This document shows positions 2,097-37,572 of a DNA stretch of 41,190 nt, in pieces; position 1 is the first letter of the stretch; each line of letters starts with the position of its first letter. A program made the translations under genes and the position numbers. The notes below the pieces were generated by a model. That model made no database searches. It had not been told where the DNA came from and saw nothing but the letters and a program-made list of their open reading frames with translations. Where the stretch lies: positions 1 through 41,190 of IMG/VR virus record IMGVR_UViG_3300040808_002675. The stretch is one strand, 5' to 3'. The stretch comes from a virus.

Positions 2097-2103
2097 CTAA
2101 ATA
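2097..2103 (+). promoter_or_regulatory. T4-type late promoter (CTAAATA)
   Basis: The heptamer CTAAATA lies 19 nt before the ATG at 2123, with a GGAG Shine-Dalgarno between them. Near-identical promoter-leader blocks precede the genes at 15771, 25670 and 36358. T4 late promoters are recognised by gp55 through a single TATAAATA-like -10 box; CTAAATA/NATAAATA variants are known from marine T4-like phages. The flanking ACTAC (2103-2107) and GTAGT (2116-2120) form a small inverted repeat around the ribosome-binding site. Confidence 0.65.
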
Positions 2104-2122
2104 CTACAGCATGGAGTAGTCA

Positions 2123-5100
2123 ATGGCAAGAGAACCTCAAAATGGTAGAATAGGCGGTGGTGTCTTACAAGATAATCTTAAAATTTATCAAGACAACTCT
2201 GGAAAAGATTACCTAAACTTCAAAAATGAAAGTGCTGATACTGCACTTCTACACTTGGATCCTATTAATAATCGTGTGGGTATTACAACTGAAGCGCCTA
2301 CGAGAGACTTACTTGTCCCTACAAAGATTAAATCTATAGGAGGTAATACCGATCGTTTAGAATTACCTAACTACACACTAGAAAATAGCATTATAAGAAA
2401 TGAATTAAATGAAACTATCTATTTGAGTTCTGCCAATAAGATTAAACTTTCCGCACTTGCAACAGATCAACTACTAATCGATGATGATAGAATTACTACT
2501 AGCGAATCAAATGCAAATATTGACTTAATTCCAAATGGCACGGGTACTGTAGAAGTACAAAATGAATTAAGAGTATACGGAAATATAGAAACAACTGGAG
2601 ATATTACTCTAGATGGCGACTTAATCTTTGGCGAAGGTCCTGAAACACCTGATTTAGTAGCATTTGATAAAGAAATAAACAGTGATATATTATTAGATGT
2701 TACAGATACCTGGGCTTTAGGTTCTGATAGAAAATATTGGGCAAACTTATGGTCAACATATCTAAATGGAGCAGCAGTAAGAACACGAGATTTATCAATT
2801 GGACCTGATCGTTTAACACTACGTCAAGGAAACAAAGTGTATGTTGCTATAAACGGCGACGATACTAATGCTGGAGATCATCAACAAGGACCTTTTAGAA
2901 CTATAAAAAGAGCATTAGAATTTGCAGATAGTAGTCCAGGACAGCAAGTTGAAATTGAAATATTTCCAGGAGAATATGAAGAAGAATTTCCTTTAACTGT
3001 TCCTTCTAATACAATTATAAATGGACACGGAATAAGAAGTGTATCTATAAAACCTACAAGTGGAACACTAGCAAGTGATTGTTTTCTACTTACAGGAGAA
3101 ACTACTGTACAAAATTTAACAATTAAAGATTTCTTTTACGACAGTTTAAATAATACAGGACATGCATTTAGGTTTGCTTCAGGTGCAGTAGTAACAAATC
3201 GTTCACCTTATATTCAAAATGTCACTGTAATTACACAAGGAAGTATTACAACAGGCGATGATCCTAGAGGATATTCTCAAGGAGATGCAGGTCGAGGCGC
3301 TTATATTGATGGTGCAGAAGTAGATTTTGCAAGTCGTAATGCAAGTATGTTATTTCATAGCGCAACATTTATAACACCCGGAGTTGATGCTATAACAATG
3401 ACCAATGGTGTAAGAGTTGAGTGGCTTAATAGTTTTACATATTTTGCTAATAGAGGCTTATATGCAGTAAGAGGAGCAACTGGGCATCTAAGCGAAGATG
3501 GCTCAACAATGATGTACGGTGCTGAAATACGTTCTATCGGTAGTGCAAATGTATACGGAAATATCGGCGCAGAAGCAGACGGCGATGATTGCATTATGTA
3601 CTTGATAAATCACAACTTTGCATATATAGGGTCAGGAAGATTTGTAGATAATGATACAACAAGAGTGGACCATACAAAAGAAGCAATCCAAATTAATAAT
3701 GGTAAAGTTTTTTATCAATCTACAGACGAAAGAGGTACTTTTAAAGTTGGAGAATCTTTTTTTGTAAACTTAGAGAATGGACTTACAAGCATTGATGCAA
3801 GCCAAGTTGACTTTGACGGATTAAGTCAAATTACTGTTTCCGACGGAGACGATGAAACAATAATAGGCGTCAACTATGTTGATACAGGAAATATTAGGTT
3901 TGACGGTAACACAGTCTTTAGTTTAGACGGAGATCTAAATATTGACACTGCTACAAATGATATAAACTTCCTTACTAATGTTAGTATACTAAAAGACCTA
4001 GCAGTTTCAAACGATGTAAACATCCAGGGCGCACTAATAACATTTGGTAATGAACCTACTGATACTTTAAAATTTAACACGCCTATATCACAAAACTTAG
4101 TTCCTGATGTAAACAGTTCTTACAATTTAGGATCTCCTACCAAGAAATGGTCAGTTCGTATAGACGATAGCCAAATCGACGATATTAAATTTAAAGACAA
4201 TTATATTACTACAACTTCTAGCAATAGCGATTTAGAATTTATAACAAACGGTGTAGGAACAGTTAATTTTCAAAATGTTACTTTTAATGCAGATACCATA
4301 TCAACAGTAGATAGCGATTTAGTAGATAGCGATTTAATATTATCTACTCCGAGTAATTTACGTATTGATGCAGATAAATTTGTATTACCAAAAGGTGATA
4401 ATGATGAAAGAATAGATGGCGAAGGCGATCTTAGATTTAATACAGAAGATAATATTTTTGAAGGTTATTCTACAAGTAATATAGGCATTGGCGGAATATT
4501 CTCGGACGATAGATTAACTTCGATTACTGCTCATCCAACTGACAATACTATCAACATTGCAGTAAATGGGGACAGCGTAGGACAAGTAAATAGTTTAGGT
4601 TTAGAAATACATGGGTTAGCCGGAGATAGTATTCTATTTGATGGCGCAACAATATCTACTATTGATTCAAATGCAGATTTAGATATTAGAAGAAATGGTA
4701 CCGGTAGTGTATATCTAGATGGTAAAGAATATTTTAGAAATAATATATGGACCAATACTGATACAGTCGGCGCTATTGAATTAAGTGCTACAGACAAAGG
4801 TTATGTAAAAGTAGGCGGAACATTTGGTACAGTTGTTCCTAGTAATGGTACTTATACTTTAGAAGATACAGCAGATGTTGCACTAGGGCAATCACTTGCA
4901 GGTGCATCTATTATAACGACCGTCACGTCTGGTGTTACAGTAACTGATCCAGGAACCGGAACCGGAACTGGCGGATTTGATACTTACAGGCATTATCTAT
5001 TTACTGGCGCTAATACAAGAAGTATTGTTAGTGCAACTTACGATTTGACAGATTTCATTGGCGGAGCAATTACAGGAAAATTTATTTCAGGTAATGATAC

Positions 5101-5545
5101 AAATGGCAAAGCATCTTTTAGAACTCCACGTAACGGAAAAGATTTAGAATTACAATGGAGCGATGATGGAATTATTTGGGAAACTATATCAGTTTTAATG
5201 TTCGGCACTCAAGCTACAGGTTTTCCAACTTGGACAGATTTTGATATTACACTAGAAGCATTACCGAGCAGTTTTAATCCAGCTACAGTTAGATTTAGAG
5301 TAGTGCAACTAGATAGTGCCGAAGGAAGCTTTGACGAAGTAGCTGTTGCGCAATTATCATTTAGATATGCAACTGATACATCTAACAATACTGAATTAGG
5401 AGCTATAAGATACAATGTAGGGTTAGCCCTATTAGAAGTTTATAATGGCACTGATTGGATTGAAAGCACTGGTGTAGAAGAAGATCCAGTTACTGAAGAA
5501 TATATGCTAGATAGAATAACACTTTGGAGCATTCTCCTAGGCTAA
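2123..5545 (+). CDS. Large beta-helix tail-fibre/virion protein (1140 aa)
   Basis: Residues about 1-235 hold fibre repeats of the type 'N..Y.LG....RW..LW' and 'ITTSESNANIDL.PNGTGTVEV', which recur near 650-720 and 840-870. Residues about 236-520 look like a pectin-lyase-type right-handed beta-helix: 'VYVAINGDDTNAGD' entry, 'PFRTIKRALEFA', 'PGEYEEEFPLTVP', 'NRSPYIQNVTVIT', 'GVRVEWLNSFTYFANRG'. A 'GKVFYQSTDERGTFKVGE' module follows. Residues about 950-1085 form a separate beta-sandwich-like domain ('LELQWSDDGIIWETI') resembling reelin/MAM-type folds (weak). A 'LGAIRYNVGLALLEVYNGTDW' element lies near the end. It is a paralogue of the next gene. It has its own late promoter 20 nt upstream and GGAG before the ATG. 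It is probably a surface-glycan-binding or enzymatic fibre; no catalytic residues could be assigned. Confidence 0.7.
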   Translation: MAREPQNGRIGGGVLQDNLKIYQDNSGKDYLNFKNESADTALLHLDPINNRVGITTEAPTRDLLVPTKIKSIGGNTDRLELPNYTLENSIIRNELNETIYLSSANKIKLSALATDQLLIDDDRITTSESNANIDLIPNGTGTVEVQNELRVYGNIETTGDITLDGDLIFGEGPETPDLVAFDKEINSDILLDVTDTWALGSDRKYWANLWSTYLNGAAVRTRDLSIGPDRLTLRQGNKVYVAINGDDTNAGDHQQGPFRTIKRALEFADSSPGQQVEIEIFPGEYEEEFPLTVPSNTIINGHGIRSVSIKPTSGTLASDCFLLTGETTVQNLTIKDFFYDSLNNTGHAFRFASGAVVTNRSPYIQNVTVITQGSITTGDDPRGYSQGDAGRGAYIDGAEVDFASRNASMLFHSATFITPGVDAITMTNGVRVEWLNSFTYFANRGLYAVRGATGHLSEDGSTMMYGAEIRSIGSANVYGNIGAEADGDDCIMYLINHNFAYIGSGRFVDNDTTRVDHTKEAIQINNGKVFYQSTDERGTFKVGESFFVNLENGLTSIDASQVDFDGLSQITVSDGDDETIIGVNYVDTGNIRFDGNTVFSLDGDLNIDTATNDINFLTNVSILKDLAVSNDVNIQGALITFGNEPTDTLKFNTPISQNLVPDVNSSYNLGSPTKKWSVRIDDSQIDDIKFKDNYITTTSSNSDLEFITNGVGTVNFQNVTFNADTISTVDSDLVDSDLILSTPSNLRIDADKFVLPKGDNDERIDGEGDLRFNTEDNIFEGYSTSNIGIGGIFSDDRLTSITAHPTDNTINIAVNGDSVGQVNSLGLEIHGLAGDSILFDGATISTIDSNADLDIRRNGTGSVYLDGKEYFRNNIWTNTDTVGAIELSATDKGYVKVGGTFGTVVPSNGTYTLEDTADVALGQSLAGASIITTVTSGVTVTDPGTGTGTGGFDTYRHYLFTGANTRSIVSATYDLTDFIGGAITGKFISGNDTNGKASFRTPRNGKDLELQWSDDGIIWETISVLMFGTQATGFPTWTDFDITLEALPSSFNPATVRFRVVQLDSAEGSFDEVAVAQLSFRYATDTSNNTELGAIRYNVGLALLEVYNGTDWIESTGVEEDPVTEEYMLDRITLWSILLG

Positions 5546-5567
5546 ACACCCCTAAAACGGCGAATTG

Positions 5568-5575
5568 GATAAATA
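5568..5575 (+). promoter_or_regulatory. T4-type late promoter (GATAAATA)
   Basis: GATAAATA is identical to the boxes at 15743 and 36330 but lies 114 nt, not 20 nt, upstream of its gene (ATG 5690). The transcript would therefore carry an unusually long leader of about 105 nt. Recognition by a gp55-like late sigma factor is inferred from the match to the T4 late consensus. Confidence 0.6.
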
Positions 5576-5689
5576 TAATTAATGCAAGTAAGACCAATAT
5601 TTGCAGGGTCAAACTGTGGTTAACCAGCAAAGAGCCCAAGGGATGAAAATTTGGTTAGAGGGACAGGATCCCCGAATTGAGGAGAAGAG
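5576..5689 (+). other. Long, potentially structured 5' leader with two micro-ORFs
   Basis: This is the longest gene-free stretch in the structural block. It contains the 10-bp palindrome TGGTTAACCA inside a GGGT...GCCC pairing, a CCAA...TTGG pairing, and a GGGA-CAGGA-TCCC hairpin close to the GAGGAG ribosome-binding site. Two tiny reading frames are possible: ATG 5582 to TAA 5623 (13 residues, ending SNCG) and ATG 5643 to TAA 5708 (21 residues, preceded by AAGGG, running out of frame into the next gene). It is not recognised as any known riboswitch. Whether RNA structure or the micro-ORFs matter is open. Confidence 0.35.
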
Positions 5690-8600
5690 ATGGCTGTTGG
5701 TCGTATAAGTGGTCCGCTCTTAAAGCAAAACCTACTTCGTCAAGGAGTAGACCTAGCTTTTGAGACGGATCTTCTATATCTAGATGTTAATAACCAGCGC
5801 ATCGGCGTTAATAATTCTAGCCCTCAATTTGATTTAGATGTAGGCGGAACAACTAGATCTACACTTTTAGAAATTACTAATTTTGCTGATATAGGTCAGA
5901 TAAACATCACAGATAACACTATTAGTACAAGTGCAAGTGTTCTTGCATTAGGTACTGGTGATAACGTTGTTTATCAAAATAGACTTACTATTGATAGTTT
6001 AGATCTAGAAGGCAATGCAATTAAATCAAATGAATCTAATGCTAATATCGAACTAAGACCTAATGGTACTGGTAGCGTTGAAGTTTATTCTGATCTTAAT
6101 GTTACAGGAGATATTTACGCTACAGGAAACATTACAGCAGACGGAACAATTAGAATTGGTGATGCAAATACCGATGAGATTGTTTTTAATTCAGAAATCA
6201 ATTCTAATATTGTTCCTGCACAAAATAATACATATAATTTAGGTAGTAATCCTGATACTGGCGGAGCAAGATGGAATGATGTTTGGGTTAAAAATGCAAA
6301 TTTCGATGCCATAGAATCTGATGCAATAGAAGCAGATGGTATTGATCTTGTTTTACGTCAAGGTAATATTATATACGTTGCTGAAAACGGTGATGATACA
6401 TATAGCGGTACACACCAAAACGATCCATTTGCGAGTGTAAAACATGCATTATCGCAAGCTGTATCAGGTGATACAATTTATATCTATCCTGGTGTTTATA
6501 CTGAAGAATTTCCTATGACTGTACCAACAGGTGTAACTGTTACTGGTAAAAGTTTAAGAAGTGTTACTATACAACCTACAGTAGGAACAAACGATCAAGA
6601 TGCATTTTTACTTAACGGTGAATGTACTGTAGAAGACATAACTGTTGCAAATTTTTATTATAATGTAGGAGCAAATACTGGACATGCATTCCGCTTTGCA
6701 CCCGGAATGACAGTTACATCACGTTCACCTTATATAAGAAACATAACAGTAATTACAAGCGGTAGTACAACTACAGCAGAAGATCCAAGAGGATTTAATA
6801 CAGGAGACGCAGGAAGAGGTGCATACTTAGATGGCAGTGTAGTTGGACCTGGTTCAAGAGATGTAGGTGGGTTGTTCCATGCAGCGACATTTATTACACC
6901 TGGTGTTGATGCAGTTACATTTACAAATGGTGTAAGAGTTGAATGGCTAAACAGTTTTACATATTTTGCTAATATAGGCGTACATTGTTTAGACGGCACG
7001 GCAGGTAAAGCTAGTGATGGTAAAACAGCACTTAGAGTTGATGATGTTACTGGAACATTTTCACCGGGCGATTTTATAACCTATTATGATAATGACGGTG
7101 TTACAGTTATTGCAAATGGTTTAATAGAAACTGTTGATGCAGATGGTAAAATTTTTATAGACGGAAAGTCTACTGGATTTGAACTTCCAAGAGAACGTAT
7201 TGGTAAAATACCAGTTGGATACGGAAATGCTGTATTAGATACTACTAATAAGAAATACGGAACAGCAAGTTTAAGTATAGATGGTGATGGCTATGTAGGT
7301 GTTGCTTCTCAAAACGATTTTGGTTTTGGAACAGGCGACTTTACTATTGAATTTTGGGTATACTTAAACAGTGTTGCAGCAGTTGATCAAATGCTGGTAG
7401 ATCTAAGAGCAGGTGTTGGTACAGATATTGCACCTGTTGTTTATACAAATGGCGGTAACATTTACTACTACACAGATAGTGCTGATAGAATTACAGGCGG
7501 TACAGCACTAACTGTTTCAACATGGCATCATATTGCACTTACAAAAGAAGGTACAAGCACAAAATTATTTGTAGACGGAACACAAGTAGGTTCTACATAT
7601 ACAGATAATAACAATTATGGAACTGCAAAACCATTGTTCATAGGTGCTGACTTTGATGGTAATAATGCTGTTAACGGATTCTTTGATGATCTAAGAATAC
7701 AAAAAGGTAATGCCCAGTATACAAACAATTTTACTGCTCCTATTACAACAGTGTATTCTACACAAGACACAGTTATACTTTTAAGATTTAATGGCGACGA
7801 CAGCACAGTCAGTTTTACAGACGAAACAATACAAAGCCAGGACATTAGATCAACAAGTGGCGCAACAGCTACTGAATTTACATTAGTTGATTACACAGAC
7901 TTTGGCGCAGAAGTGCGTATGATAGGTAGTGCTTGTGTGTACGGTAATTATGGTATATACGGATCAGGACCTGGTGTTATTGTATATGCTATCGGACAAA
8001 ATTTAGCATATATCGGTAATGGAAAAGAAGTAACCAACGACCCAACTACAGTTATTCAAGGTAATGAAGTTGTAGAATTAAATGGTGCAAAAGTTAGATA
8101 TAACTCAGTTGATCACAGAGGTGACTTTAGAGTAGGTGATCTTTTCTATGTTAATCAAGAAGACGGTACTGTATCGTTTACTGCTGCAAACTTTAATGTT
8201 GACACTGATACTGGATTAACATTTACAGATGGCGTAAACACTACAACTATTTTAGCTACAGGTATTGATACAGGCAATTGGCGTATAAGCGGAAACACAA
8301 TAGAAACACTATCAGGCGATGCTAACTTTGATAGTTCTAGCGAACAAATCAATCTTAACAACAATGTTAACATAACTGGGAATTTAGATGTAACTGGCAA
8401 CATAACTATTGGCGGCGATATTACAATTGGTGACGAAGCAACTGACAGTATTGAAATAATTGCAGGAATAAATTCAAATATTGTGCCAAGCGAAGACTCG
8501 ACTTACACACTTGGTACACCGAGTTTAAGATGGAAAAACTTATATGCTAACATAGTTAATGTAGATGATATTAAAATAACAAACAACTATATTACAACAA

Positions 8601-15742: not shown

Positions 15743-15750
15743 GATAAATA
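15743..15750 (+). promoter_or_regulatory. T4-type late promoter (GATAAATA)
   Basis: GATAAATA is followed by CTACATACGGAG and the ATG at 15771, the same 20-nt box-to-start spacing as at 2097, 25643 and 36330. It lies in the 48-nt gap between the two giant genes, so the second can be transcribed independently. The assignment rests on consensus and position. Confidence 0.65.
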
Positions 15751-15770
15751 CTACATACGGAGTAAAATAA

Positions 15771-18700
15771 ATGGCAGAATTTAAGTTAGGTAGAATTAGA
15801 TTTGTTTGGAAAGGCGACTGGTCTAATAGCACTAAGTACTTTAGAGACGATGTAATAGCCTATGGCGGTAAAGTATATATTTGTACCATAGGACATACAA
15901 GTGACGCAGATTTCTTTACAGATTTAGATATTGTTCCTCCAAAATGGAACCTTGTAAGTGATGGTCAAACTTATAAAGGAGTTTGGGCACCTGACACATA
16001 TTATGTGTATGATGATATTGTTAGCTATGGTGCAAGACTTTATATTTGTAATACAGTCCATACATCAGATGCTGACGCTGAAGCAGGACTAGAAGCTGAC
16101 TTATCAAAGTGGGATGTTTATGCCGAGGGCTTAGATTGGAAAGGTGACTGGGCAATATCTACACGTTATAGAGTAAATGACCTAGTTAGATACGGAGGTC
16201 AAACTTATGTTTGTAACGCTCTACATACTTCTGCTGCCACAGAAACTCTAGGGTTAGAAGCTAACCAAGGAAATTGGGAAGTATTCAATCCGGGTATTGA
16301 ATACAAAAATACTTGGAATAAACTAACAAGATATAAAGTAAACGATGTAGTAACATATGGTTCTGGTTTATATATTTGTACAACATATCATACTAGTACA
16401 CAAGATTTTCCAACTGACGAAGGTAACTGGGAACAATTTGTACAAGGTTTCCAGTTCGACGGAGAATGGAGCCAAGGTAGAGCTTACCAAAAAGGTGATG
16501 TAGTAAGAAGCGGTGGAAATCAATATATTGCACTTACTAACCACAGAGGCAGCGATCCACAAGCAGATCCGAATAGTGATTGGAGACTGTTTAGTGAAGG
16601 TATTAGATTCGTCGGAGAATGGGGCGAAGATTCTAGTAACATAGAATACAACAAAGGTGAAGTTATCAGCCGTGGGGGATATACATATCTATGTATCGAA
16701 AAGCACAGCGGGTTTGCTCCGCCAAATACAGACTACTGGCAAGAACTTGCAACAGGTTTAAGCTTCAGAGGTAGATGGTTAGATGACCAAGAATATTTCT
16801 TAGGTGATGTTGTAAGATTTGGACAAAACGCATATGTTTGTGTTCAAGGACATATTTCAGAAGGAGATGATTTCTCAACTGAAACACTAACTGAACCAGG
16901 CGGCGGCGCACAAAATTCTCGTCCAGATCAAGACTTAACAGGTACATATTGGAATATTCTTGTAATTGGTAGTGAAACATCTGTTTTAACAACTGACGGC
17001 GACTTAGTTTACTATTCAGGCGCAGGCCCAACAAGACTTCCAATAGGTAACGAAGGACAAATACTAGAAGTTTCGTCTGCAGGTGTTCCTGAATGGACAT
17101 ACTATGGTGTAGCAGAAGATGTGTACTATGTTGCAGAACATGGAACAGACGGGCCAGCACCGTTACATGGACGCACCTTAGATAAGCCTTTTAGAAGTAT
17201 TCGTTATGCTTGCGAACAAGTAGAACATGGAACAAAAAATTCTAATGCAAGAAAACTACTTGAACTAAACAGATTTTTTGTTCAAAGAGAAATAATTGAA
17301 TGGACTGACTATCAAGTTGCAAACGCAGGCGTAGGCGATCTATTTGAAAACTTTGAGTACAACGAAGAAAAATGTTCAAGAGATATGGGTCTTATTGTTG
17401 ACGCATTGGTTTACGATATTACACACGGCGGCAACGTAAAATCAAGAGAAGCTGCACTGTCTTATATAAATGATACTGTAGGTTCTCCATATTTAGGACA
17501 AAAAGAAGAAACAGTTGCTTCAATAAACTATGGGTTACAAGTGATCGAAGCAGTATTAGGTAACACTGATCCAGCAGTAAATTATCAAGTGTTAAACGGT
17601 GACAATTCAACTGCTATAGTAGATCAATACAAAGACGAAAGTTTAGATGTTGAAAATGTTCTAGCAGACATTACATCACTTACTGGAATTATTACTAACG
17701 CAATCACAGCAGGTGTAGCTGATGATATTCCTGCAAGAATACAACGTAGTTCTCTTATTAAAGTTTCAACAGGAAAATATTATGAATTACTTCCTATTAT
17801 TGTTCCAGCAGAAACATGTATACTAGGTGACGAACTTCGTTCAACAAATGTTCAACCTAGAAAAGAAGAAAATACTACTATGGTAGACATTTTCGATAGT
17901 CAGTTTAGCTATAGAGCAATTGAAAGACTAGAAAATATTGCAGCTGATATTGTAAGAGGGGTAGGAGTTACTCCAACAACTGGAAACACAGAAACACAAT
18001 CACAAGAATTTCCTTTCGCTCAAAATGCACAAGCAACAGGTGTTGCCCAAGCACTCAGAACAATTAGAAAAGAAATTGATTTTAGTCTAGGTCAAAAACT
18101 AGAAGCAGTATTGCCAAATCCAGTAGGTTTTGACGATGCTTATGGCAGAGCACGAGACCTAATTAAAATTAACAAAACATTTATTCAATTAGAAGTTTTA
18201 GAATATATTACTAATAACTATCCAAATGTTTATTATAGCAAAACTAAATGTAAACAGGATATAGGATACATTCTCGATGCTATTTCATATGATTTAACTT
18301 ATGGCGGTAACTGGCAATCAGTTAATGCAGGTAATGCATATTTTGCAGGATCAGGCGGATCTTTACAAATTGATACAGAAGAAAAATTAGCAACTATTGC
18401 TGCTTATCAGTACTTGAAAGACATCCTTGCTCCTATTTCAAGAAACATCACAGTGTCACCTACAGAACAAACAACTGAACCACAAATACCAGGTACAGGT
18501 GGTAGTGTAGCAGCAGCTACAGCAGCACAAGATTTAATTGACGATATTATTCAAACAATTAACACAGGTACTGCACCTGCTATTACATATCCAGTTATTA
18601 CAGCTGAATCAGCTGCATTACAAGCAGATAACGCTATACTACTAAGTGGCGGAAATCAAACTACTGTTAAAAATAATGTTATTTCTTTCATTACAACAAA

Positions 18701-25633: not shown

Positions 25634-25669
25634 ACTCCACTACTAAATATTCTGTAGTGGAGTTTTTTT
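25634..25669 (+). terminator. Rho-independent terminator closing the fibre operon
   Basis: A perfect 10-bp stem, ACTCCACTAC (25634-25643) with GTAGTGGAGT (25654-25663), encloses a 10-nt loop and is followed by seven T (25663-25669). It sits 25 nt after the 181-aa gene. Unusually, the T-tract runs straight into the ATG at 25670, and GGAG in the 3' arm (25659-25662) is the only ribosome-binding site for that gene. Confidence 0.8.
25643..25649 (+). promoter_or_regulatory. T4-type late promoter (CTAAATA) inside a terminator hairpin
   Basis: CTAAATA occupies the loop edge of the terminator and keeps the 20-nt spacing to ATG 25670 seen at 2097, 15743 and 36330. A transcript started here would lack the 5' arm of the hairpin, leaving the GGAG ribosome-binding site free. 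A read-through transcript from the fibre operon would fold it away. Confidence 0.5.
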
Positions 25670-26335
25670 ATGAGTAATTATAAAGGTTTATACAACGATC
25701 CAAATGAACGTGCTAGGGTAACTTATCCTTATGTATATTGGGAAGATGCATTTAGTAGAGAAGAACTTGATGCTATATGTGAAATAGGTTCTCGTGATTT
25801 AGTTGAAGGAACAATTGCTGGGAAAAAAGAAAACCATGATGGCGTAGCAGATACTCCAAAAAATGTAGGTCCAGTTTCTAATAAAAGTGTAAGAAGTTCT
25901 AAAGTATCTTTTCACAAAAAGAATGACGAAACTGAATGGATATTTGAGAGATTAAATGGCCTTATTGAAATGTGTAACAATAGATGGTATAATTATGATT
26001 TAAATGGTTACGAAGCATTTCAATATACAGAATACCACTGGGACGAAGAAGGTCACTATGACTGGCATGTTGACTCACAATTTGGTGTTCTTCCTTACGA
26101 TAATTTAAATTTAGAAATGAGAAAATTATCACTTACTCTACTGTTAAATGATCCAGAAGAAGATTTTGAAGGCGGCGAGTTACAAATTGGTAGCCCATTA
26201 AATCCAGAAACTTGTGCAACAAAAAAAGGCACTGCAATTTTATTTCCTTCATTCCAGTTACATAGAGTAGCACCAGTAAGAAAAGGTATAAGAAAATCAT
26301 TAGTTGTTTGGGTGTTAGGACCAAAGTTTAAGTAA
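25670..26335 (+). CDS. 2-oxoglutarate/Fe(II) oxygenase, prolyl-4-hydroxylase/PKHD type (221 aa)
   Basis: A double-stranded beta-helix dioxygenase. The iron triad is visible as H133-x-D135 ('HYDWHVDSQF') and H198 ('FQLHRVAPV'), with R208 ('RKSLVVWV') as the 2-oxoglutarate-binding Arg. 'LSLTLLLNDPEEDFEGGEL' between them is the classic P4Hc/PKHD strand. Such enzymes hydroxylate proteins or small molecules using 2-oxoglutarate, O2 and Fe(II). It is the first gene of a five-gene plus-strand run ending at 29672, starts directly after the terminator T-tract, and abuts the next ATG (TAA at 26333-26335, ATG 26336). The substrate cannot be read from sequence; neighbouring halogenases suggest a shared target. 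Confidence 0.85.
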   Translation: MSNYKGLYNDPNERARVTYPYVYWEDAFSREELDAICEIGSRDLVEGTIAGKKENHDGVADTPKNVGPVSNKSVRSSKVSFHKKNDETEWIFERLNGLIEMCNNRWYNYDLNGYEAFQYTEYHWDEEGHYDWHVDSQFGVLPYDNLNLEMRKLSLTLLLNDPEEDFEGGELQIGSPLNPETCATKKGTAILFPSFQLHRVAPVRKGIRKSLVVWVLGPKFK

Positions 26336-26860
26336 ATGGCTTGTGAGGTATATGATAATTTTTTAGAAAAGGAAGTATTCAGCAACATACAACGTCTTAT
26401 GCTAAGTGCTGATATACCCTGGTTTATGAATGAACATATAGTTAAACCAGACTATAAAGATATTGATGATCTTTATAATTATCAGTTTACACATGTATTT
26501 TATAGAAATCATGCCCATTGTAGTGATTTTTTTGCAGATTGTATAGATCCGTTGTTTTTTAAGATTAATCCTAGTGCTATAATACGTGTAAAAGCAAATC
26601 TTATTCCTAGGACACACGAAACAATAACACATCAAATGCATGTAGACGTTGGATATTTTAAAGGCAAAACGGCAATTTTTTACATCAACACAAATAATGG
26701 CAAAACTATTTTTGAAGACGGCACGGAAATTGACTCTATTGAAAATAGACTAGTTGTATTTGATTCTAATATATTACACACTGGCACAACATGCACTGAC
26801 ACTAGAGCAAGATGTTTGATTAATTTAAATTATTACACTTGGAACGTAGATGAAACCTAA
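26336..26860 (+). CDS. 2-oxoglutarate/Fe(II) oxygenase-like protein (174 aa)
   Basis: A compact cupin-fold oxygenase with a complete candidate triad: H102-x-D104 ('HQMHVDVGYF'), H148 ('NILHTGTT') and R159 ('RARCLINLNYY'). 'TAIFYINTNNGKTIFEDG' is the expected central strand. It is shorter than the PKHD-type neighbour and probably a different subfamily, resembling phage 2OG oxygenases of unknown substrate. The start codon directly follows the previous stop, and its last 11 nt overlap the halogenase start at 26850, implying co-translation. The catalytic residues are seen; the activity and substrate are inferred. Confidence 0.75.
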   Translation: MACEVYDNFLEKEVFSNIQRLMLSADIPWFMNEHIVKPDYKDIDDLYNYQFTHVFYRNHAHCSDFFADCIDPLFFKINPSAIIRVKANLIPRTHETITHQMHVDVGYFKGKTAIFYINTNNGKTIFEDGTEIDSIENRLVVFDSNILHTGTTCTDTRARCLINLNYYTWNVDET

Positions 26861-28301
26861 TAAAATACTTGTTGTCGGGGGCGGCACAGCAGGTCTAATT
26901 GCAGCAATTATTTTAAAAATAAAACTCAATGTTATAGTAGATGTAGTACATTCAAAAAACATTGGTATTATTGGTGTAGGTGAAGGTTCTACAGAACACT
27001 GGAAAGAATTTATGTCTTTTGCAGGCATAGATCAATATGATTTAATTAAACACTGCGATGCAACGTACAAGAGCGGTATTATGTTTTCAAACTGGGGAGC
27101 AAAAGATTTTTTGCATAGTGTCGCAGGACCTTTTGATAACAAGAATGGACAATACAGTTATGTCTATGCAAAACAGATTGCAAAAAATGATACATATTTG
27201 TATCCTAGTAACTTTTTAGATAGCACAATTGATGTTAGATTTTTTAATACTAGAGATGCTTTTCCTGCTAATCAGTTTCATTTTAACACTTATAAATTAA
27301 ACGAATTTTTGATAGATAAAGCAAAATCTATTGGAATCAATGTTTTAGAAGACGATATTAATGAAGTAATTCTTGATCAAGAAGGATCTATAGATTATTT
27401 GATAGGAAAAAAACAAGAATACAACTATGACTTTTATATAGACAGTACAGGATTTAAACGCATCCTTATGTCAAAACTTGGCGCTAAGTGGAAGTCATAT
27501 AAAAAATATTTAAAAATGAAATCTGCTATAGTTTTTCAAACACCTGATGAGCCAAATTATAATCTTTGGACACTAGCAAAGGCAATGGATTACGGATGGA
27601 GATTTAAGATTCCTGTATGGGGCAGACACGGTAATGGATATATTTTTGATAGCGATTACATTACTGCTGATGATGCACAAAAAGAATTGACCAAAGAACT
27701 AGGCGATATAGAAATAAGAAAACAATTTAATTTTGATCCAGGTTGTTTAGAATCAGTATGGATTAAAAATTGTTGTGCAATAGGTGTATCTGCTAATTTT
27801 GTAGAGCCTTTAGAAGCTTCTAGTATCGGTACAAGTATACAACAATCTTTTTTACTAATGCATAAAATTAGTAACTATACACAACAAACTATACAATCAT
27901 ATAATAAGTCTGTCAATAGTATAATGGAAAATATACGAGACTTTGTTGTTCTTCATTATCAAACAAAAAAGAATCATAACAGTTTTTGGCAAGATTTACA
28001 AAAAACAGAATTACCAGAAAGTTTACTTGAAAATTTAGAAATGTGGAAATATAAACTTCCTATTAGGGAAGATTTTTCAGGACAATCAAATTATATTTTA
28101 TTTACAGAAGACAACTATACATTAGTAATGAATGGTTTAGATTTGTTTGATCGAAAAAGTATTGATGGCGAATATCAAACTCTTAATAGGTTTGCACAAG
28201 ACAATGCAAATCTAATTATAGATGACGAGTTATATAACGAACAAAATTTAAAAACTATAACACACAAAAACTTTCTCAAATTGGTTAGAGACTATCTATA
28301 G
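26850..28301 (+). CDS. Flavin-dependent (tryptophan-type) halogenase homologue A (483 aa)
   Basis: The N-terminal Rossmann FAD loop is 'GGGTAG' (residues 10-15), followed by 'GVGEGST', the family's GVGEATxP motif. The halogenase catalytic Lys aligns with K74 ('TYKSGIMFSNW') and the catalytic Glu with E322 ('FVEPLEASSI'; PrnA E346). The WxWxIP signature is altered to W250-R-F-K-I-P. 'GYIFDSDYI' and 'DSTGFKR' are also typical. The family (PrnA/RebH, PF04820) uses FADH2, O2 and halide to make HOCl/HOBr-derived halogenated aromatics. No flavin reductase gene is in the window. It overlaps the upstream oxygenase by 11 nt. Halogenase is supported; substrate, and whether it halogenates at all, is open given the changed motif. 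Confidence 0.8.
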   Translation: MKPNKILVVGGGTAGLIAAIILKIKLNVIVDVVHSKNIGIIGVGEGSTEHWKEFMSFAGIDQYDLIKHCDATYKSGIMFSNWGAKDFLHSVAGPFDNKNGQYSYVYAKQIAKNDTYLYPSNFLDSTIDVRFFNTRDAFPANQFHFNTYKLNEFLIDKAKSIGINVLEDDINEVILDQEGSIDYLIGKKQEYNYDFYIDSTGFKRILMSKLGAKWKSYKKYLKMKSAIVFQTPDEPNYNLWTLAKAMDYGWRFKIPVWGRHGNGYIFDSDYITADDAQKELTKELGDIEIRKQFNFDPGCLESVWIKNCCAIGVSANFVEPLEASSIGTSIQQSFLLMHKISNYTQQTIQSYNKSVNSIMENIRDFVVLHYQTKKNHNSFWQDLQKTELPESLLENLEMWKYKLPIREDFSGQSNYILFTEDNYTLVMNGLDLFDRKSIDGEYQTLNRFAQDNANLIIDDELYNEQNLKTITHKNFLKLVRDYL

Positions 28302-29672: not shown

Positions 29673-31373
29673 TTAGTTCGGGATGTATACACATCTTTTA
29701 ATTTCAGGCATATAAAGATACTGTAATTTAGATCTTCTTAAAGAATCTATTGCATCATCTACAGTCTCGACAATAGGGTCTCCTGCAAGATTAAATGATG
29801 TGTTAAGTAGCATAGGAACACTTGTTTCATTGTGCCATGTGTTAAGAAGGTTATAAAAATGAAAATTTTGTTCTTTATTAACAGTTTGTATTCTGCAAGT
29901 ATTATCTATATGAAGTACAGCAGGAATATCAATTAGTGTTTCTTTTTTTGCATTTACAGCATACATCATATAAGGTGAACTATCTATTTTATCTAGCTCA
30001 AACCAATCCTTTGCATATTCTTCCATAACTGTTGCAGCAAATGGTCTAAAAGATTCTCTACCCTTTACAGTATTAACAATGTCTTTGCCTTTGTCAATTC
30101 TAGGATCAAAAATAATACTTCTATTACCTAATGCTCTAGGACCAGCTTCTGATTTTCCTTGATATAGCCCAACTATATGTCCTGCTTTTAATAGTTCGAC
30201 TATAGTTTCGTAGTTAGCAAAAAACTCTTTCTCGTCTTCTTGTAATCTACTTAAATAATTATACTCAGGATCATTACCTCCTATATAAATCGATGGAGTA
30301 GATATAGGAGTTTCGCTTTTATTTTTTTCGTTAATATATAAGAGAGCAAGACCTATACAGTTGCCTTCATCTCCACAGAGAGGATCAACATATATGTTTA
30401 CATCTTCTGGCAGTTTTTGTCGATAGTAATAGTTTGCTACAACGTTTAGTGCAGTACCGCCAGTAAGGACTATATTTTTATTACCTGTTTTATCAATCAT
30501 ACGCTTGATGCGATCTAATCCTATTTCTTGAAATGCTTTTTGAACTTTTTTTGCAAAGTCGGTTGCATTTGCATCATCTAAAAGTTCTAAATGATCTCTA
30601 GTAAATCCTAGATGTTTTCTTTCATGGTCGAATGCAAATAAATCCATATCAAACTCGCCATTCTTTAAAGGATCAGGAACTAGCCAATTGTCGTTCCCGA
30701 ATGATTGAGCACTCATCATTTTTCCGCCTTCGTCGTCAAGCCCCATACTACGAGAAGTTCCTTCATACATAAATCCTAAATCAAAGCTGTTAGATATTTC
30801 AATCTCACTTTTTTGACTCACATATCTAGGTCTAGGAACTCGGTGTATAGTAAACTGATTGTGCCAAATTATTTTTGTATCTTCGTCTATTTTTGAATGA
30901 GTATGAAATCTTCTATAAAGTAATTTAAAATTACCTTTTTTATTTGCTTCAAATATTGAAGTAGTTTCTTGGGCTTGTCCTCCATTAGATAAATTATATG
31001 TAGATCCTTTTCCGTCGCAAACAAATACCAATGCGTCATCAAATCCTGAATCATAAAATGCTTTTGTTGCATGATATAAATGATGTGCTTTGTTGTAAGG
31101 AACAAATTCAAATCCTTTGTTAAAAGCAAATCCCATTTTTTGTAATATACTAATTATAGACATGTTTTCAGAAAGCACACTATCATATCCAGATATTAGT
31201 AGTACATCTATGTCTTTACAAATTTTTTGTATTTCTTGTAAGGTATAATATGGATACCCGCTATCTTTTTTAATTCTAGATAATCTTTCTTCTTGATTAT
31301 AATAAATTAATTCGTTGTTCATGTATAAACAAGCACTCGAATTATGATCTTTTTGTATACTTAAAATATTCAT
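29673..31373 (-). CDS. NodU/CmcH-type O-carbamoyltransferase (566 aa)
   Basis: The full two-domain family length is present. The N-terminal TsaD/Kae1-like domain begins 'MNILSIQKDHNSSACLY', has 'NQEERLSRIKKDSGYP', the metal-binding 'HHLYH' at 97-101, 'VFVCDGKGS' at 117-124 and 'LTGGTALNVVAN' near 303-314. The C-terminal YrdC-like domain has 'SEAGPRALGNRSI' (408-420), 'GRESFRPFAATVM' (438-450) and 'LLNTSFNLAGDPIV' (522-535). The family transfers a carbamoyl group from carbamoyl phosphate to a hydroxyl via carbamoyl-AMP, on sugars (Nod factor, tobramycin) or antibiotics. It is the second gene of a two-gene minus operon after the HDH oxygenase; GGAATG precedes the ATG. It appears intact. The acceptor (glycan, hydroxylated peptide or small molecule) is unknown. 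Confidence 0.9.
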   Translation of the reverse strand: MNILSIQKDHNSSACLYMNNELIYYNQEERLSRIKKDSGYPYYTLQEIQKICKDIDVLLISGYDSVLSENMSIISILQKMGFAFNKGFEFVPYNKAHHLYHATKAFYDSGFDDALVFVCDGKGSTYNLSNGGQAQETTSIFEANKKGNFKLLYRRFHTHSKIDEDTKIIWHNQFTIHRVPRPRYVSQKSEIEISNSFDLGFMYEGTSRSMGLDDEGGKMMSAQSFGNDNWLVPDPLKNGEFDMDLFAFDHERKHLGFTRDHLELLDDANATDFAKKVQKAFQEIGLDRIKRMIDKTGNKNIVLTGGTALNVVANYYYRQKLPEDVNIYVDPLCGDEGNCIGLALLYINEKNKSETPISTPSIYIGGNDPEYNYLSRLQEDEKEFFANYETIVELLKAGHIVGLYQGKSEAGPRALGNRSIIFDPRIDKGKDIVNTVKGRESFRPFAATVMEEYAKDWFELDKIDSSPYMMYAVNAKKETLIDIPAVLHIDNTCRIQTVNKEQNFHFYNLLNTWHNETSVPMLLNTSFNLAGDPIVETVDDAIDSLRRSKLQYLYMPEIKRCVYIPN

Positions 31374-34752: not shown

Positions 34753-36300
34753 ATGAACATTGTCATTGCCGGCGGCGGCACAGCAGGCTGGCTAGCTGCA
34801 TTATTTATAGCAAAAAATCATCCAAATCATAATATAACAATAGTTGCTTCATCTAAAATTGGAGTTATAGGAGCAGGTGAAGGTGTCACTGGCGAACTTA
34901 TGGATGTTATAATAGGACATTACGGTGATTTTGGTATTGATCCTAAAGAGTTTTTAAAAAATACAGGAGCTATGCCTAAATATGGTATTATGCATAAAAA
35001 TTGGACTCCTGTAAAAGATAAACAGTATTTCGGTCCAATAGATGGAACTAAAACAAGCGGAAGACTTCCGGATGATTTAATTGTTTATCTATCAAATTTT
35101 GCAAAAGATAAAGCATATCTCGGATCATTCTATGGCAATTTATATGAACAAAATGTTTCGCCTGTTAATAAAGTTACTAACACTTATGAAATATCAACTT
35201 TTGCCTTCCACTTTGATGCGAGACTAGCTGCACAAGAGTTAGAAAAAGCAGCTCTAAAATTTCCTAATATAACACTTGTTGATAGTATTATAAAAGGATC
35301 GACAATGAATAATGGATTGATAGATTCTTTGATTTTAGAAGATGGGCAAAAACTAGAAGGTGATTTTTTTGTAGACGCTACAGGATTTGCAAGACTCCTT
35401 ATAAAGAATTTTGATGTAGGCTGGATTAGTTATAAAAAACATTTACCTGTAAATACTGCGTTACCTTTCTTTATACAATACGAAGAAGGTGAATCTCCTA
35501 ATCCATACAGTATGGCATGGGCACAATCTGCAGGATGGTATTGGGAAGCGGCTGTACAACATCGTAAAGGGTGCGGATATGTATTTTCAGATGATCATAT
35601 TTCTGTTGACGATGCACATGCTGAGATAGAAAAAACACTAGGTCGTAAAGTAGATCCTATTAAAGTTTTAAAATTTGACAGCGGAAGATTAGAAAATAGT
35701 TGGGTTAAAAATTGCTTTGCAATAGGATTAGCATCTGCTTTTAGTGAACCTTTAGAAGCAACATCTATTCATGCAACTATACGACAGTTAGCAGACCTGT
35801 CTCATGAATTTATACAGCCGACGATTGAAGATACAATTAATCCTGCTAGTATTAAATTATGCAACCATAGAATGAATAGAATGTATGACGATTTTAAAGA
35901 TTTCTTATCATCGCATTATCTAGGAGGTCGTACAGACACTGAGTTTTGGAAATATGTTACAAACGAATCTGCAACAGACTTTGCTAAAAATTTACAAGAA
36001 ATGTGTAAGTCAAGAATTCCTACAAAATTTGATTTTCCTCATTATCCAGGGTCGGCTAATTGGACAATTTGGTCTTATGTATTGTTGGGTACTAATCAAC
36101 TTACAGAAAAAGTAACATCTAAATATTTGAACGAAGAAATTATTAGAGATAGTGAATATTACTTAAATCATTTAGCTACTTTTGCAGAAAAAACAAAACT
36201 TACGCACTATAGTTTCGATGAACATATTGATATTGTAAAAAATAATCCAATAGATTTTATACCATATTTAGGCGATGAACACTATCTAGGACATTTATAA
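34753..36300 (+). CDS. Flavin-dependent (tryptophan-type) halogenase homologue C (515 aa)
   Basis: FAD loop 'GGGTAG' near residues 7-12, 'GAGEGVT' in place of GVGEATxP, candidate catalytic Lys K76 ('MPKYGIMHKNW') and Glu E335 ('FSEPLEATSI'). The signature tryptophan motif reads W262-Y-W-E-A-A, so the IP pair is lost. 'GCGYVFSDDHIS' and 'DATGFARLLI' are conserved. It is a single-gene transcript, divergent from the oxygenase/halogenase B operon, and the last island gene before the late promoter at 36330. Full length, no frameshift. The flavin-binding halogenase fold is supported; the altered WxWxIP suggests a changed substrate or activity such as plain oxygenation or peroxide production. Confidence 0.8.
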   Translation: MNIVIAGGGTAGWLAALFIAKNHPNHNITIVASSKIGVIGAGEGVTGELMDVIIGHYGDFGIDPKEFLKNTGAMPKYGIMHKNWTPVKDKQYFGPIDGTKTSGRLPDDLIVYLSNFAKDKAYLGSFYGNLYEQNVSPVNKVTNTYEISTFAFHFDARLAAQELEKAALKFPNITLVDSIIKGSTMNNGLIDSLILEDGQKLEGDFFVDATGFARLLIKNFDVGWISYKKHLPVNTALPFFIQYEEGESPNPYSMAWAQSAGWYWEAAVQHRKGCGYVFSDDHISVDDAHAEIEKTLGRKVDPIKVLKFDSGRLENSWVKNCFAIGLASAFSEPLEATSIHATIRQLADLSHEFIQPTIEDTINPASIKLCNHRMNRMYDDFKDFLSSHYLGGRTDTEFWKYVTNESATDFAKNLQEMCKSRIPTKFDFPHYPGSANWTIWSYVLLGTNQLTEKVTSKYLNEEIIRDSEYYLNHLATFAEKTKLTHYSFDEHIDIVKNNPIDFIPYLGDEHYLGHL

Positions 36301-36329: not shown

Positions 36330-36337
36330 GATAAATA
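36330..36337 (+). promoter_or_regulatory. T4-type late promoter (GATAAATA)
   Basis: GATAAATA is followed by GGAG (36347-36350) and ATG 36358, repeating the 20-nt promoter-to-start spacing of the other late units. It restarts structural-gene transcription immediately after the enzyme island. Confidence 0.65.
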
Positions 36338-36357
36338 CGTTATAATGGAGATAAAGA

Positions 36358-37572
36358 ATGAATTCTGCACCAATTGTTGATCGTATAAGAATTATTCCTA
36401 GAGCTAAAGACTTTTTAGATAGAAGTACAGGTTCAAGCGGCGAGGTATTCTTTAGTAAAGAAACTAATACACTAAGAGTGTATAGTGGACGAACTGCAAA
36501 TCGCGGCGGGTTTGAAGTAGTAACCGATGCAAGTCTTAGAAGAAATATCGGCCAGCAAGAAATTGCATCTGTAAAATATGATGTTACTATAAATAATTCA
36601 GGCACCGGCAATAAGTATATTCTAAACGGTGTAGAACGCCCAGCACTGTCATTTGTGATAGGTTACACTTATGTTTTTGATCAAACAGATCAAACAAACA
36701 TTTATTATCCTAATCCTGAAGGCGGTGCAAATAACCAGCATGTGCTTGGATTTAGTGCAGACAATATAGATGGTGTTGAAGGCGGCGGCACAATTTATGA
36801 AGACGGTGTAAAATATATACTAGATGGCAAAGAGGTTGACAGAAGCACTTATGTAAAAAACTTTCAGCGTTCAGACACACGTATTGTTCAAATAACTATT
36901 ACTTCTTCTACTCCTGAAACATTATATTACTGGTGTAATCAACATACTGGTATGGGCAATGAAATTAGTGTAGGAGAACCAGGAGCAGGTTCAGCAGGCG
37001 CCGGAACAGTTACAGCAAGCATTGATCCGCCTGCAAACCCAACTAACGGAAGTGTTTGGTTTGATGCAGAAATAGGTAAATTATATGTATACTTAGATGA
37101 CGGCGACAGTCAACAGTGGGTACAGCCTGTTGCTACAGAAAGTGCAGGAGTTGATTTAACAGCATTTAGTGTAACACAAAATCCAGCATCGGGAACAGGA
37201 TCACTTACATATGATGACGCAACTGGAGTTTTTGAATATACTCCTCCAGAAATTAGCGGCGGTGGCGGCGGTGGATTTGATCAAACTTTAAACACTACAG
37301 ATGATGTAGTATTTGCAAGTATAGAAGCAGCAAGTTTTACAAATACAGGTGTTGGCATTTCGACTATAACAAGTGCAAGTACACTAACACTTGATGTAGG
37401 AGATGCACTTATAGTTTCGGGCGGTCCATTTAGATTACCTAGTCTAACTGATGCAGAAAGGGATGCATTAATTCCTGTCAACGGCGACATGATATATAAT
37501 ACAGATAATACAAGAATAGAATCTTATGTCAATGGAGCATGGGTAATAGTTAGCACTAGTCCAATAGTTTAA
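36358..37572 (+). CDS. Virion structural protein with a cupredoxin-like domain (404 aa)
   Basis: Residues about 1-70 form a fibre-type head with 'GSSGEVFFSKETNTLRVYSG'. Residues about 80-205 look like a plastocyanin-like domain: 'YTYVFDQTDQTN', H128 ('NNQHVLGFS'), then strand 'RIVQITIT' and 'YYWCNQHTGMG' with C193, H196 and M199, the Cys-His-Met set of a type-1 copper site. 'PANPTNGSVWFDAEIGKLYVY' and a C-terminal RYNT-like module ('LPSLTDAERDALIPVNGDM') mark it as a phage fibre protein. A late promoter lies 20 nt upstream. A second cupredoxin protein lies two genes on. Copper binding is inferred from ligands only. Confidence 0.7.
   Translation: MNSAPIVDRIRIIPRAKDFLDRSTGSSGEVFFSKETNTLRVYSGRTANRGGFEVVTDASLRRNIGQQEIASVKYDVTINNSGTGNKYILNGVERPALSFVIGYTYVFDQTDQTNIYYPNPEGGANNQHVLGFSADNIDGVEGGGTIYEDGVKYILDGKEVDRSTYVKNFQRSDTRIVQITITSSTPETLYYWCNQHTGMGNEISVGEPGAGSAGAGTVTASIDPPANPTNGSVWFDAEIGKLYVYLDDGDSQQWVQPVATESAGVDLTAFSVTQNPASGTGSLTYDDATGVFEYTPPEISGGGGGGFDQTLNTTDDVVFASIEAASFTNTGVGISTITSASTLTLDVGDALIVSGGPFRLPSLTDAERDALIPVNGDMIYNTDNTRIESYVNGAWVIVSTSPIV

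Follow-up and report, generated by a model that had tools for sequence, protein, structure and literature searches.

A terminator-like hairpin that carries a late promoter box and the ribosome-binding site of the next gene in a T4-type phage, and the recurrence of similar predicted locks

Background

Hairpins that lock a ribosome-binding site (RBS), with an internal late promoter as the means of opening it, are established for T4 gene e and I-TevI, and similar structures have been reported for soc, 49 and Aeh1 mobE (PMC3014915, PMC2988022). In gene e, which encodes the lysozyme, the Shine-Dalgarno (SD) sequence lies in the 3' arm and the late box TATAAATA in the loop, and late RNA lacks the 5' arm. 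In I-TevI, I-TevII and mobE the read-through RNA likewise hides the RBS, with the late promoter in or beside the 5' arm. The leaders of soc, 49 and 26 also pair the start region of a late gene in the long RNA.

We describe a hairpin of this kind in a 41,190-nt stretch of viral DNA, all of which was analysed and is called the window below. The principle of the RBS lock is already known, and the hairpin is a compact variant of the T4 lock with a U-tract added. It differs from that of gene e, which has no U-tract, locks RNA from early promoters and precedes a lysis gene, in being terminator-like as well and in lying between late units. I-TevI, I-TevII and mobE differ in being homing endonuclease genes inside other genes, without a terminator; the soc leader has no U-tract, and the structure at T4 26/51 arises from back-to-back SD sites of divergent genes. 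With intrinsic (rho-independent) terminators the hairpin shares a stem of at least 10 bp followed by U7, 25 nt past a stop codon, but here the 3' arm and U-tract double as SD and spacer of the next gene, and a promoter box occupies the loop. We found no description in the open-access literature of an RBS lock fused with an intrinsic terminator, or of the breadth of RBS locks across T4-type late genes.

Results and discussion

Anatomy and setting of the hairpin

The features of the junction are collected in Table 1. The original prediction of a 10-bp stem and seven T directly abutting the ATG proved exact at every position, and the GGAG in the 3' arm is indeed the sole SD-like site 5' of that ATG. 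The loop was also said to hold CTAAATA; TAAATA is unpaired there, but the 5' arm ends with the first C (25643), which pairs with G25654. In the minimum-energy structure the stem extends to 14 pairs, with the T-tract joining in.

Table 1. Features of the junction and of the late modules compared with it (positions in the window)
Feature	Position	Strand	Basis or remark
Last upstream tail-set gene, 181 aa	25063..25608	+	no family match
5' arm, ACTCCACTAC	25634..25643	+	sequence, fold, inverted-repeat search; missing from internal-promoter RNA
Anti-SD CTCC in 5' arm	25635-25638	+	
T4-type late promoter box, CTAAATA	25643..25649	+	sequence, spacing to ATG
Loop, TAAATATTCT, 10 nt	25644..25653	+	fold
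3' arm, GTAGTGGAGT	25654..25663	+	sequence, fold
Predicted late RNA start	25655..25655	+	CTAAATA begins at -12; ±1 nt
GGAG	25659..25662	+	within 3' arm
T7, terminator U-tract and SD-to-start spacer	25663..25669	+	sequence
2OG-Fe(II) oxygenase family gene, first of island, 221 aa	25670..26335	+	
Comparison late module, CTAAATA to ATG 2123	2097..2126	+	no hairpin
Comparison late module, GATAAATA to ATG 15771	15743..15773	+	no hairpin; before tail set ending 25608
Comparison late module, GATAAATA to ATG 36358	36330..36360	+	no hairpin

Several measures set the structure apart from its surroundings. It ranks first among the inverted repeats of the window and folds with a z of -4.5, and a search of both strands found no second 10-bp Watson-Crick stem followed by at least six T, a combination that dinucleotide shuffling of the window produced in 2 of 200 cases. 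In having a stable stem and then a U-tract where a transcription unit ends, the hairpin is built like an intrinsic terminator, although its 10-nt loop is longer than usual, and a terminator scan that admits loops of up to 8 nt misses it. The region has no match in Rfam.

Upstream lie tail and baseplate genes, which have late boxes before them at 2097 and 15743 and no identified early promoter. Downstream is a five-gene plus-strand island in which the leading oxygenase is followed by an endonuclease V-like gene, a tryptophan halogenase, a second 2OG-Fe(II) oxygenase and one gene of unknown function. The window is a fragment of the phage genome, and a family scan of most, though not all, of its genes showed no gp55, gp33 or gp45. 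Relatives of the two genes at the junction were not found among the viral contigs, so conservation of the hairpin at its own junction is not shown, and recurrence was examined in other phages instead. Two tryptophan-halogenase-like genes and a Nol-type carbamoyltransferase gene (26850-28301, 34753-36300 and 29673-31373) lie amid the phage tail genes and possibly form a modification island.

Late-promoter modules

The promoter part of the junction follows a common plan, in which a late box is followed after 8-9 nt by GGAG and after a further 6-7 nt by ATG. The same module precedes the genes at 2123, 15771 and 36358, in each case without a T-tract, the T-run being confined to the module with the hairpin. 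Three of the four compared modules of the window thus do without a lock, as do most late modules overall. A box resembling TATAAATA or CTAAATA about 20 nt before a start codon is typical of T4-type late promoters, and here the distance from the end of CTAAATA to the ATG is 20 nt. That this is the standard spacing was borne out by ten other T4-type genomes analysed with the window, in which box-to-ATG distances peak at 19-20 nt. CTAAATA itself occurs no more often in the window than expected (11 sites against 14); what is unusual about the copy at 25643 is its position, not its abundance.

Promoters read by gp55 consist of a single box and need no -35 element, and for that reason a T4-type promoter is well suited to placement inside a hairpin. 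CTAAATA is the Aeh1 form of the late box and begins at -12 (PMC1524935), which puts the predicted RNA start at 25655.

Computed locking of the ribosome-binding site

For each late module we calculated the energetic cost of opening the RBS, once for read-through RNA and once for RNA that begins after the box. The null was obtained by shuffling only the sequence upstream of the box, with everything from the box onward fixed. At the window hairpin, opening costs 21.2 kcal/mol in read-through RNA, where the SD is paired, and 4.9 kcal/mol in promoter-started RNA; the null is 9.1 ± 1.9 kcal/mol, and none of 60 shuffles reaches the read-through value. The sequence, spacing and predicted start place the late promoter such that its RNA would lack the 5' arm. 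The calculation, together with the published precedents of T4 e, soc, 49 and I-TevI, gives good support to the earlier claim that read-through RNA would hide the GGAG and promoter-initiated RNA would expose it.

Across the ten other T4-type genomes and the window, read-through locking at p <= 0.05 was found in 36 of 238 late modules, with 11.9 expected, and 25 of the 238 lock at p <= 0.02. The screen recovered a known case, T4 I-TevII, blind. It cannot score T4 e because the 5' arm of that hairpin sits between two boxes; when T4 e, soc and I-TevI were folded directly, each gave the topology of the window hairpin, none with a U-tract. Some of the 36 matches may be by-products, since the read-through stems of T4 26/51 and of one Aeh1 pair arise from back-to-back SD sites of divergent genes. 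T-runs accompany 4 of 34 locking modules versus 6 of 204 others (p = 0.04), and most locking modules lack a U-tract. In one 338-kb record (G010) many late modules are locked by unrelated stems (ATGs at 333759, 326554, 266306, 243486, 109894, 102043 and 7965), two of them before homing/HNH endonuclease genes.

Fused hairpins in viral contigs

A pattern scan for the fused form returned 87 viral loci. Among non-identical viral hairpins with TAAATA in the loop and a stem of at least 7 bp, 32 of 45 have an ATG that opens an ORF 5-8 nt after the GGAG. In bacterial genomes the same hairpin pattern is coupled to an ATG in 6 of 85 cases (p = 3e-14 versus the viral set, an optimistic value because the viral sequences are partly related). 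The bacterial genomes replaced a scan with the scrambled loop AATATA, which proved unclean as a negative control; such loops often contain TATAAT and themselves mark fused hairpins. When the loop was left unconstrained, TAAATA occurred in 9 of 46 hairpins versus 1.95 in shuffles, a sample that is weak alone because stemless matches gave 4 of 46.

The genes behind TAAATA-loop hairpins include those for the T4-type late proteins gp13 (neck) and gp5 (baseplate hub), a RuvC-like resolvase and a RegA-like protein. Similar predicted locks, built from different sequences, recur across many T4-like phages. Fused terminator-SD hairpins with a sigma70 -10 element in the loop and a -35 upstream of the 5' arm (L002:7142-7182, L183:1181-1223, L239, L154, L145 and L296) precede dNMP kinase, MazG and other genes, and on contig L002 the two kinds of loop occur one gene apart. 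At L136:3938-3972, and at similar loci on L137, L162, L188, L195 and L233, endolysin-amidase-like genes follow a long hairpin that hides the SD and has T6-T7, but whose loop holds no obvious promoter box.

Predicted locks before gene 13

The best 80 relatives of gene 13 yielded 49 unique sequences whose box was in range and whose flanks were long enough. Of these, 24 have an RBS lock at p <= 0.05, where 2.5 were expected, a proportion that overstates independence because gene 13 was picked after hairpins had been noticed there and the sequences are related; 15 of the 49 lock at p <= 0.01. The locks are of two designs, one with the SD in the 3' arm (n = 13) and one in which GCCAT over the box pairs with the start ATGGC (n = 11), and this second class, together with the differing stems, softens this caveat. 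The SD-arm stems covary, with 9 double-change cells against a shuffled mean of 2.7 (none of 500 shuffles as high), and sliding the partners abolishes the signal. In nine of the loci (L352, L354, L356, L359, L360, L362, L365, L371 and L376) the box CATAAATA overlaps GCCAT, and its pairing with ATGGC makes a start-codon lock without a terminator.

A T-run of at least five occurs in 5 of the 13 SD-arm members and in none of the 11 start-codon-arm members, and for this reason we regard the terminator as an added option. In these predicted structures the common element is the RBS lock, and the U-tract is an optional extra.

A probable fused insulator between late units

The hairpin is probably a fused insulator between two late units, by which the first island gene would be made only from its own promoter. 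RNA of the tail operon would fold the hairpin and stop at the U-tract; in RNA that reads through, the GGAG would be held in a stem of at least 10 bp, and translation would not begin at the 2OG-oxygenase start. Polymerase carrying the T4-type late sigma (gp55) would start near 25655 from the CTAAATA inside the hairpin. This RNA, without the 5' arm, would neither terminate nor hide the GGAG, and its leader of about 15 nt would leave the SD open. The overall action would be to terminate, to silence leakage and to restart.

The observations behind this proposal are the sequence, fold, spacing and computed energies of the hairpin, and elsewhere the recurrence and covariation of like structures, seen in the viral excess of start-codon coupling and in the locks among late modules and before gene 13. 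From them we infer promoter use, termination, the effect on translation and the purpose. Separation of dosage would be a likelier purpose than early/late timing, as late boxes precede the upstream unit too. The original prediction had the entire island translatable only from its own late promoter; the predicted lock supports this for the first gene, but the RBSs of the other island genes are not locked, and these genes would be guarded only through termination or translational coupling.

Other explanations account for parts of the arrangement. Short intergenic space might have led an ordinary terminator, a late promoter and an SD to share 36 nt, with the hiding of the GGAG an unselected by-product. 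A terminator alone would already be useful at the end of the tail set, and in viruses SD-fused terminators with a start codon behind them are not confined to TAAATA loops (in the AATATA scan 13 of 20 stems are of this kind, though several hold TATAAT). Nevertheless, the 11 start-codon-arm hairpins of gene 13 give the same lock without a U-tract, as do most locking modules, and read-through locking exceeds its null; we consider compaction by itself unlikely.

A timer in the strict sense of T4 gene e, in which the lock blocks translation of incoming early or middle RNA, would agree with the anatomy, which matches that of e and I-TevI, where early and middle RNAs are the ones locked. At this locus, however, the RNA would come from tail and baseplate genes that stand behind late boxes, with no early promoter identified in front, and this explanation strikes us as quite improbable. 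To a reading in which the hairpin is a terminator only, the loop CTAAATA a chance match and the island read from elsewhere, we attach hardly any weight. The lack of CTAAATA enrichment across the window is in its favour, but the box has exactly the 20-nt spacing of the phage's other late modules, no other box-SD module precedes 25670, and TAAATA is a recurrent loop motif of fused hairpins that precede late genes, for example those of gp13 and gp5.

Beyond the insulator proposed for this junction, we suggest tentatively, as something possible rather than expected, that RBS locks gated by a promoter evolve often and repeatedly at the late genes of T4-type phages, as a general principle of insulation with a sigma70 counterpart before early genes. 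Such locks could take SD-arm, start-codon-arm or terminator-fused form and would not be peculiar to e, soc and homing endonucleases. If this is true, the translation of each late unit would depend entirely on RNA that starts at the unit's own promoter, and what textbooks describe for a few T4 genes would become a testable general rule for insulating compact late operons. The 36-nt part at 25634-25669 is predicted to terminate, silence leakage and restart. Gene 13, whose relatives show different designs at a single orthologous position, lends itself naturally to tests of the rule. Junctions of this kind would be missed by terminator scanners that admit short loops only, and by operon maps that rely solely on terminators.

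Late boxes at other distances

Within 5545-5690 of the window, GATAAATA occurs at 5568 with the next gene start 114 nt on, which would imply either a leader of exceptional length or a small gene that has escaped annotation. At the other extreme, HTVC008M, Mosig and the genomes G041 and G010 show a sharp peak of TAAATA-N5-ATG, with 53 ORF starts at 5 nt versus about 2-11 at neighbouring distances. If +1 lies six nt past the box, such RNA would begin at the A of the ATG, and leaderless late mRNAs may for that reason be common (12 in HTVC008M and 19 in G010, for example).
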